A stretch of DNA of 64,000 nucleotides from Halopelagius inordinatus (GTDB lineage: Archaea; Halobacteriota; Halobacteria; Halobacteriales; Haloferacaceae): positions 744,001 to 808,000 of the forward strand of contig NZ_FOOQ01000001.1 of the NCBI RefSeq assembly GCF_900113245.1. The letters are read 5' to 3'. The translations under genes and the position numbers were made by a program. The notes under the pieces were generated by a model. It saw nothing but the letters and a program-made list of their open reading frames with translations, did no database searches and had not been told where the DNA came from. Positions 2,959 to 9,689 of the stretch are shown here, in pieces. Within the stretch, counting starts at the first letter, position 1. Each line of letters opens with the position of its first letter.

Positions 2959-3079
2959 GCCGGCCCGCCACTTTCACTCTCGCTTTCTCTTCTTCTCTCG
3001 TGGACGCGGACGCGACGGCGACCGACGCGCGTGGGCAGCGAGGGAACCGCTTAAGTCCGTCACACGCAGAGCAAAAGGT

Positions 3080-3124
3080 ATGATCACCAGGGTATCGCAC
3101 GCGAAGGGAGGGTCGGGGTCGTGA
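3080..3124 (+). other. Short leader ORF (14 codons) overlapping the ferritin-like gene start
   Basis: Reads MITRVSHAKGGSGS and stop. Its ATG lies 27 nt after the centre of a TATA-like CTTAAG (3050-3055), the distance expected for a leaderless transcript. Its TGA overlaps the GTG start of the next gene as GTGA, and a GGAGGG stretch within it (about 3108-3113) could serve as Shine-Dalgarno sequence for that gene. Translation is not shown. It may simply be a 5' leader that happens to be open. Confidence 0.4.
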
Positions 3125-3618
3125 GCGTCGGCCACCGGGTGACGTCGGACCACCAACTCGCGCGCCTTCTCCAGATCGGCGTGGTACTGGAGGAAGTCGT
3201 CGAGGCCCGCGCGTACCACCACTACCAGTCGCTCTCCGACGAGGACAGAGCGCTCGACGAGGAACTCGAAGCGCTTCTCGAACACGCCGCAGAGGAGTCC
3301 GCAGAGCACCGCGAGCGTCTGGCCTCTCTCGTCGACGAACTCGACGCCGAGAGCATCCCGTTCGAGGACATCGAGACGCTCGTCGAAGCGCAGTACGGCA
3401 AGACGAAGCCCGACGACTTCGACGGCGTCCTCTACGACCAACTCTGCAACGAAGAGACCGCGTACAAGTTCTACGACGACCTCATCGGCGCGATTCGTGC
3501 CAGCGACGCGCAGTTCACCGTCGACCGGGAGCGCCTCATCGCCGTGCTCACGGAGATTCGAGAGGAGGAGGCCGACGGCGTCGAGGCAGTGACAAAGATA
3601 ATGGAGAAGCGCGAATGA
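3121..3618 (+). CDS. Ferritin-like four-helix protein
   Basis: A 165-residue acidic, almost wholly helical protein. Carboxylate/histidine pairs at helix spacing are visible: LEEVVEARAYHHYQ near residues 23-36, LEEH..EESAEHRERL at about 55-70, and NEETAYKFYDDL at about 117-128. This matches the rubrerythrin/ferritin-like diiron fold found in haloarchaeal genomes. A role in iron storage or peroxide handling is inferred from the fold and from its place between suf genes and a DtxR-type regulator. The start is GTG 3121; a second GTG at 3139 (VTSDHQLARLLQ) is possible. The stop overlaps a 16-codon ORF that leads into the regulator gene. Confidence 0.75.
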   Translation: MSVGHRVTSDHQLARLLQIGVVLEEVVEARAYHHYQSLSDEDRALDEELEALLEHAAEESAEHRERLASLVDELDAESIPFEDIETLVEAQYGKTKPDDFDGVLYDQLCNEETAYKFYDDLIGAIRASDAQFTVDRERLIAVLTEIREEEADGVEAVTKIMEKRE

Positions 3619-3665
3619 GCCCACTCGAACAGACCGGCGGACACGGTACGGGAGGATCACGATGA
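3615..3665 (+). other. Bridging micro-ORF (16 codons) between ferritin-like gene and sirR
   Basis: Reads MSPLEQTGGHGTGGSR and stop. Its ATG overlaps the stop of the ferritin-like gene (ATGA, 3615-3618), and its own TGA overlaps the ATG of sirR (ATGA, 3662-3665). A GGGAGGAT stretch inside it (about 3650-3657) is a good Shine-Dalgarno sequence for sirR. The arrangement would let ribosomes pass from one gene to the next without release. The peptide itself looks unstructured and may have no function. Confidence 0.4.
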
Positions 3666-4102
3666 ACACCGCAGACCAGTACGTCAAGGCAATCTACCTA
3701 CTGCAAGAGATGGAGGACGGCCCGGCGGCGACCGGCGCACTCGCGGACATGCTCGACGTGAGTCCGGCGAGCGCGAACGAGATGATCGGGAAGCTGGAAG
3801 ACCGCGGGCTCGCGAACCACGAAAAGTACAAGGGCGTACAGCTCACCGACGAGGGAATCGTTCGCGCGCGCGACGCACTCCAGACGTACTGCATCATAGA
3901 GCGGTTCCTCGCGAACGTCCTCGACGTCGAGTCGTTCCGCGAGGAGGCCCGGGAACTCGAACCCGTCATCGACGGAACGGTCGCGGAGCGATTGGACACG
4001 ATCATCGACCGAAACAGCGACTGTCCGGACTGCTTCGACGCCGAGACGGACGCCTGCGAGTATCTGGAAATCCCCGAGGCCGAAGAGAAGCCCGCCGATT
4101 AA
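3662..4102 (+). CDS. sirR: SirR, DtxR-family metal-dependent transcription regulator
   Basis: A 146-residue DtxR/MntR-type regulator. Residues 1-65 form the winged helix (NTADQYVKAIYLLQEMEDG, then LADMLDVSPASANEMIGKLEDRGL, then YKGVQLTDEGI). Residues 66-135 are the metal-binding/dimerisation domain with the carboxylate-rich LEPVIDGTVAERLD. A CPDCFDAETDACEYL segment follows (C-x2-C...C), typical of the haloarchaeal SirR form. Such proteins repress iron or manganese uptake genes when metal-loaded. Its position after suf and ferritin-like genes supports an iron role. Translation appears coupled to the preceding micro-ORF through ATGA. Confidence 0.88.
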   Translation: MNTADQYVKAIYLLQEMEDGPAATGALADMLDVSPASANEMIGKLEDRGLANHEKYKGVQLTDEGIVRARDALQTYCIIERFLANVLDVESFREEARELEPVIDGTVAERLDTIIDRNSDCPDCFDAETDACEYLEIPEAEEKPAD

Positions 4103-9191: not shown

Positions 9192-9638
9192 AACGGCACC
9201 CCACGTCGAAACACTCGTCGCAGTCCAGACGTACGGGTCGCTCGCGCGACTGACGGTCGTGCTCCGTCTCCGAGAGCGGGGACGGTGAAAACCACTACCG
9301 AGTTCGGTGGCGCGTCCGAGCGACCCCGGTAGCGGCGCGACGAGGCTCGCTGTAGCCACGATTACGACCCTGGAGGAACCAAACGCCGAGTTCGCCGCCC
9401 GGGGTGACACTCCGGTTTCTCACCGACGAGTCGCCGAGCGTCGACGTCCGGCGAGACGGACGAGACTACTATCATATAACGGACTATTATCTGCTCTATC
9501 CGATTCGGACGCCGAAATTGGACGGGTCCGTCGATCCAGACTATCCGTTAAAGACTCGATTCAGGCGTTTTATCTTTCGTTAACGAAGTTTACTCTAAAC
9601 CGAGTACGTTATACGCTCGCGTCGATTCGTATTATTTG
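9192..9638. other. Long intergenic region, AT-rich in its second half
   Basis: No gene that I can support. An open frame at 9307-9639 (110 codons) changes from Arg-rich to AT-rich codon use and resembles no family, so I treat it as chance. From about 9470 the DNA becomes distinctly AT-rich, with repeated TTA/TAAC elements such as CCGTTAAAG, CGTTAACG and CGTTATACG. This suggests a multi-element promoter for the small membrane protein gene at 9686. Confidence 0.5.
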
Positions 9639-9689
9639 ATGACTGAAACGATCTCTCTGCTGTTCGCCGCGACGGAGGATACACGATGA
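9639..9689 (+). other. Leaderless micro-ORF (16 codons) overlapping the next start
   Basis: Reads MTETISLLFAATEDTR and stop. The ATG is 28 nt downstream of the TATA-like GTTATACG (9609-9616 region). The TGA overlaps the ATG of the membrane protein gene as ATGA. GGAGGAT at about 9675-9681 gives that gene a Shine-Dalgarno sequence inside the micro-ORF. Translation is not demonstrated. Confidence 0.4.

Follow-up and report, generated by a model that had tools for sequence, protein, structure and literature searches.

How would ribosomes reach a regulator gene in a haloarchaeal unit in which a micro-ORF stands ahead of each of the two genes? The question is raised by a locus of Halopelagius inordinatus, within a window (the whole stretch of DNA analysed here) of 64,000 nt. 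All features of the unit lie on the forward strand, and the gene 5' of it encodes a SufB/SufD-type protein. The TATA-like promoter box of the unit, CTTAAG (3050-3055), is followed by uORF1, a leaderless-type micro-ORF of 14 codons (3080-3124; ATG at 3080, TGA ending at 3124; peptide MITRVSHAKGGSGS). The distance between them had been given as 27 nt in a preliminary description; it is 25 nt from the end of CTTAAG and 29 nt from its TTAAG, and a TTAAG-type box occurs 28-31 nt ahead of the uORF1 ATG in most loci of the family. The last codon of uORF1 takes part in a GTGA joint with the ferritin-like gene (165 aa, 3121-3618), which starts with GTG at 3121 and is preceded, within uORF1, by the Shine-Dalgarno-like sequence GGGAGGG (3106-3112). 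The ferritin-like stop shares the tetranucleotide ATGA (3615-3618) with the start of relay ORF2 (16 codons, 3615-3665; peptide MSPLEQTGGHGTGGSR). This ORF runs in the -1 frame relative to the ferritin-like gene and contains the Shine-Dalgarno-like sequence GGGAGG (3650-3655), and its TGA overlaps, as a further ATGA, the ATG of sirR (146 aa, 3662-4102) at 3662. Direct reading and re-translation confirmed the four frames and the joints GTGA, ATGA and ATGA where they were first noted. All three link same-strand frames by overlapping stop and start codons, which is the structure expected of termination-reinitiation.

The ferritin-like gene was found in 167 of 170 genomes of the family and in 387 of 391 genomes sampled from the order. 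Its product gave no useful family in Pfam and NCBIfam searches and no match of use in a sequence search of the PDB. The predicted structure is a four-helix bundle (mean pLDDT 78.4), and the best structural matches of the model are Dps, bacterioferritin and related ferritin-like proteins (TM about 0.5-0.74; Foldseek E ~0.01-0.02); the name "ferritin-like" is therefore reasonable for the predicted product of 3121-3618. A misplaced start of this gene was considered and ruled out, as in other families the protein begins at this very residue, close to the promoter, and these leaderless orthologues back the GTG. The sirR product matches the Pfam models Fe_dep_repress and Fe_dep_repr_C above the cut-off and belongs to the DtxR/MntR family of metal-dependent regulators. 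There are three PF02742 matches in the genome, sirR among them, and two of the three are over the cut-off. The name sirR was chosen in the preliminary description; the regulator may be of the TroR rather than the SirR type. That the chain couples the output of an iron regulator to translation of the ferritin-like protein is only plausible.

The path from the ferritin-like stop to the sirR start (joint 2) is conserved. The comparison set holds 175 distinct ferritin-like/sirR loci from about 50 genera of the haloarchaeal order, those from outside the family being a sample of the best-scoring matches. In 173 of the 175 loci, at most two untranslated bases lie between the ferritin-like stop and the regulator start. 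The two genes overlap directly in 43 loci and are separated by a 2-nt spacer (TAA or TAG, two bases, ATG) in 14; one relay ORF bridges them in 112 loci and two relay ORFs in series in three, and in one further locus (L022) the relay stops 2 nt early. The two exceptions are L044 and L182. Relays, found in 115 of 175 loci, have 2-40 codons each, and the gap length at this joint spans 7-186 nt.

Since each relay step uses up one base, the expected gap class (length modulo 3) is 2 without a relay, 1 with one relay and 0 with two. Among 118 gaps longer than 5 nt, 112 belong to class 1, five to class 0 and one to class 2. Three of the five class 0 loci are the two-relay loci, which sit in exactly the class that the relay model predicts; the others are a locus whose relay begins one base after TAA, and L044. 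By parsimony on a two-gene tree, joint 2 has undergone at least 52 length changes and six changes of frame class, versus 83 and 48 in a control spacer from the same species (upstream suf gene to ferritin-like start; binomial P about 2e-16), these counts resting on a FastTree topology and on loci that are related. A tree-free minimum is provided by the 34 distinct gap lengths, which require at least 33 changes; 28 of the 34 are of class 1. The difference between joint 2 and the control spacer, together with a synonymous bias at the end of the ferritin-like gene, points to overlaps kept by selection and not by chance. The relay frame is open in 110 of 112 loci with 99.5 expected, which is weak evidence alone; the evidential weight for the relay is on frame class and start codons, not on the open frame.

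The synonymous bias concerns the last ferritin-like codon, whose final base, together with TGA, forms the relay start. This base is A in 92 of the 115 relay loci. The final codon is CGA in 32 of 36 cases of arginine (15.5% usage of A-ending synonyms), CAA in all nine cases of glutamine (14%), GCA in 10 of 12 cases of alanine (9%) and GAA in 37 of 52 cases of glutamate (24%), the 15 GAG cases giving GTGA. Rare A-ending synonyms at the end of the ferritin-like gene thus create ATGA. Where the stop has shifted to TAA, the relay ATG is retained as TAATGA (L020, L055) or TAACATG (L048).

At joint 1, uORF1 overlaps the ferritin-like start in 148 of 175 loci. Its length varies from 9 to 22 codons with at least 32 length changes, and promoter-proximal upstream ATGs are found in the relay frame in 142 cases versus eight and one in the other two frames. 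In 20 of the 175 loci, mostly from two other families, the ferritin-like start is itself promoter-proximal and the gene looks leaderless, so a uORF is superfluous there. The gene begins directly after the promoter box in families f4 and f5 (L193-L227); uORF1 was therefore gained or lost at least once. Joint 1 would accordingly have two alternative forms: either the ferritin-like gene is leaderless, or a leaderless uORF passes the ribosome on to it. The joint 2 relay occurs with both uORF1 and a promoter-proximal ferritin-like start. The rule for joint 1 is broken by a Halocatena-like group and by one Haloplanus-like locus (L081). SD-like 4-mers precede the ferritin-like start in 85 of 175 loci.

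Of the 148 loci, 79 carry a hexamer, GTATCG, within uORF1, about 6-19 nt past the ATG (3092-3097 in the window). It occupies two reading frames and therefore looks like a DNA or RNA element rather than a peptide motif, possibly an operator or an RNA signal that holds the 5' segment in place. We rejected GTATCG as a general start-proximal element, since the starts of other genes show no enrichment for it.

Very probably, the genes of the unit are obligatorily coupled at translation through termination-reinitiation, and the micro-ORFs serve as ribosome bridges whose peptide sequence does not matter. A ribosome would load on the uORF1 ATG at the 5' end of a leaderless transcript, read 9-22 codons, end at NTGA and reinitiate on the overlapping ferritin-like start. 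At the ferritin-like stop it could reinitiate directly on the regulator start, across an overlap or a 2-nt spacer; otherwise a relay ORF would ferry it over the intergenic stretch to a second NTGA at the regulator start. The peptides would be functionless spacers that need only be translatable, and intergenic insertions would persist only where the path remains translated. From the sequence comparison we infer that ribosomes take this path and that regulator output depends on it. Species with a direct overlap show that the relay as such is dispensable.

This coupling agrees with studies of Haloferax volcanii. According to Huber et al. 2019 (PMC6728339), the downstream gene of overlapping pairs is strictly dependent on translation of the upstream gene, and SD motifs have no role in driving de novo initiation. 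Reinitiation is abolished by spacers of about 22-23 nt according to their 2023 study (PMC10666635), and the 43-nt spacer of this locus should therefore be uncoupled without its relay. SD-like sites ahead of sirR, present in 89 of 90 loci with a gap of at least 31 nt, leave room for some independent initiation.

The main rival holds that the micro-ORFs serve to cover the transcript with ribosomes against termination (FttA-type polarity) or nucleases, handover being secondary. The same anatomy would give a continuously translated mRNA, and FttA polarity has been proposed for archaea (PMC12548453). If cover were all that mattered, gaps of 10-20 nt should be acceptable; instead, precise NTGA overlaps are found repeatedly at the two ends, and cover would still require reinitiation at each joint. 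We regard this explanation as unlikely, though it deserves more credit than the others considered below.

In the proposed coupling, the micro-ORF peptides should be free to drift, and they are. Among close relatives, substitutions at codon positions 1, 2 and 3 number 146, 153 and 138 in uORF1 and 76, 84 and 88 in the relay, compared with 659, 445 and 2528 in the ferritin-like gene. Substitutions that are flat across codon positions indicate peptides without selection; by these counts, neither micro-ORF shows the purifying selection on amino acids expected of a small-protein gene. With its short frame, stop-start overlap and unselected peptide, uORF1 has the properties of a ribosome-delivering uORF. 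The peptides could instead be functional, or form a leader that senses peptide or codons (an attenuator), which would fit the conserved presence of the micro-ORFs and the recurrence of the hexamer in uORF1. The flat substitution pattern, lengths of 9-22 and 2-40 codons and the placement of the hexamer in two frames all speak against this, and no conserved peptide or codon run of the kind that marks a leader peptide was found in uORF1 or the relay; we consider such a role very improbable. Conservation appears to concern the translation of both micro-ORFs, not the peptides that result. The overlaps and open frames are kept while the peptides drift, as the preliminary description had anticipated for relatives, and this extends well past the family level; loss of the open frames, which would have told against its chain of termination and reinitiation, was seen in none of the close relatives. 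Conserved overlaps, frame class and drifting peptides across the order thus lend support to that chain as the probable arrangement.

Programmed frameshifting or read-through that fuses the ferritin-like protein, relay and regulator might likewise explain the conservation of frame, the relay being in the -1 frame relative to the ferritin-like gene. Such a fusion needs a single gap class, and direct, one-relay and two-relay loci occupy three; an ATG or GTG at the stop and the synonymous bias would also be needless, and we give this reading almost no credence.

The chance level was estimated from 848 kb of the window's genome, in which genes were called; 306 pairs of same-strand neighbours are separated there by 8-200 nt. 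A frame that stays open between the stop of the first gene and an overlap with the start of the second was found, with any start codon, in 33 of 306 pairs for the relay frame versus 34 and 33 for the control frames. Such equal counts mean that there is no genome-wide excess of relays, so a lone relay proves little, and the idea of a genome-wide relay habit is not supported. Relays that start with ATG are limited to two of the 306 pairs, the window locus being one of them, and those with ATG or GTG to nine; a leaderless-looking uORF with an NTGA overlap onto a gene start precedes three of 865 genes. The arrangement is thus unusual within its own genome, as had been suggested. A lone relay could arise by chance at the 1-3% level, and the proof that it did not lies in its conservation. 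Chance open frames in GC-rich DNA, although they yield relay-like frames with any start codon at the rate just given, are scarcely credible as an explanation of ATG relays this rare and of a frame class that survived at least 52 changes of length, the control spacer having switched class 48 times in 83.

Two further elements were noted in this genome. A second leaderless-looking uORF of 16 codons lies at 9639-9689 of the window, with a TTATAC box at 9610; its TGA and the ATG of the gene that follows (9686) share an ATGA. The sole other ATG-started relay in the 848 kb is on the minus strand of G000:C1 (~686797-686894), where 34 codons span a 100-nt gap between genes for two exported or membrane-like proteins.

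Several parts of this picture are already known, namely overlap coupling, ribosome-delivering uORFs and, as a precedent, the mycobacterial MIRU (PMC12548453). The pairs described in the available sections of Huber et al. (PMC6728339, PMC10666635) share with our locus the NTGA overlaps, the same-strand order, an SD-like site inside the upstream frame and a haloarchaeal host. Those pairs are real genes, whereas here peptide-neutral micro-ORFs would bridge spacers otherwise too long; the same sections contain no mention of an interposed relay ORF. The short ribosome-delivering uORFs reviewed in PMC12548453 resemble uORF1 in their short frame, unconserved peptide and NTGA overlap with the main start. 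In contrast to them, uORF1 is leaderless-type, is found order-wide and is free to vary in length; in addition, two structural genes are joined by a second micro-ORF. The MIRU likewise places a small ORF at a start codon, to which it is coupled at -4 nt spacing, and its insertion is therefore tolerated (PMC12548453). MIRUs are repetitive mobile units, whereas the relay and uORF1 are single-copy in the window's genome, with no repeated, dispersed copies. An intergenic small ORF of a Salmonella Mg2+ transporter also lies between two genes and aids translation of the second; in the available text (PMC8092293), it works by aborting translation and by the unfolding of a start that is otherwise sequestered, whereas here stop-start overlaps and frame rules are conserved.

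A search of the Haloferax Ribo-seq and small-protein literature found nothing covering this locus. Nor did we find, in the literature searched, a conserved peptide-neutral relay, single or double, between unrelated genes with an order-wide frame arithmetic. We tentatively propose, as a generalization that may well prove too broad, that haloarchaea, which hardly initiate internally on a transcript, retain obligatory relay ORFs on which selection acts only to keep them translated. A spacer between coupled genes could then lengthen only by turning into an open frame with a stop-start overlap at each end. Some spacers would hold two such frames in series, and in certain lineages small repeated elements would supply them. 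The ferritin/DtxR unit would then be the first well-conserved case, and its uORF1 would also act as a translational entry gate. Conserved frame arithmetic, overlaps and a neutral peptide form a signature that separates translated, non-functional micro-ORFs from small-protein genes and chance ORFs. The crossing of gaps by haloarchaeal ribosomes also becomes testable with reporters, the prediction being that gaps are crossed only via translated relays. For the locus itself, the results suggest a link at translation between a ferritin-like protein that is nearly universal in haloarchaea and the metal-sensing regulator encoded next to it.

Related copies of a relay elsewhere were found in the Halalkalicoccus group only. 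In this group (L204, L162, L173, L200, L231) the relay is a unit of ~60 nt that contains a hairpin, GCGACCAC..GTGGTCGC, and carries RTGA at either end; each genome has about one strict match to this pattern, and the unit had no match in viral contigs. Related units lie directly 5' of other genes in L275, L276 and L280 (a MNTVEQWKQEKHPLDV gene and a VRTSERIGRVPPSGIRKFFE gene), a distribution that recalls the mycobacterial MIRUs.
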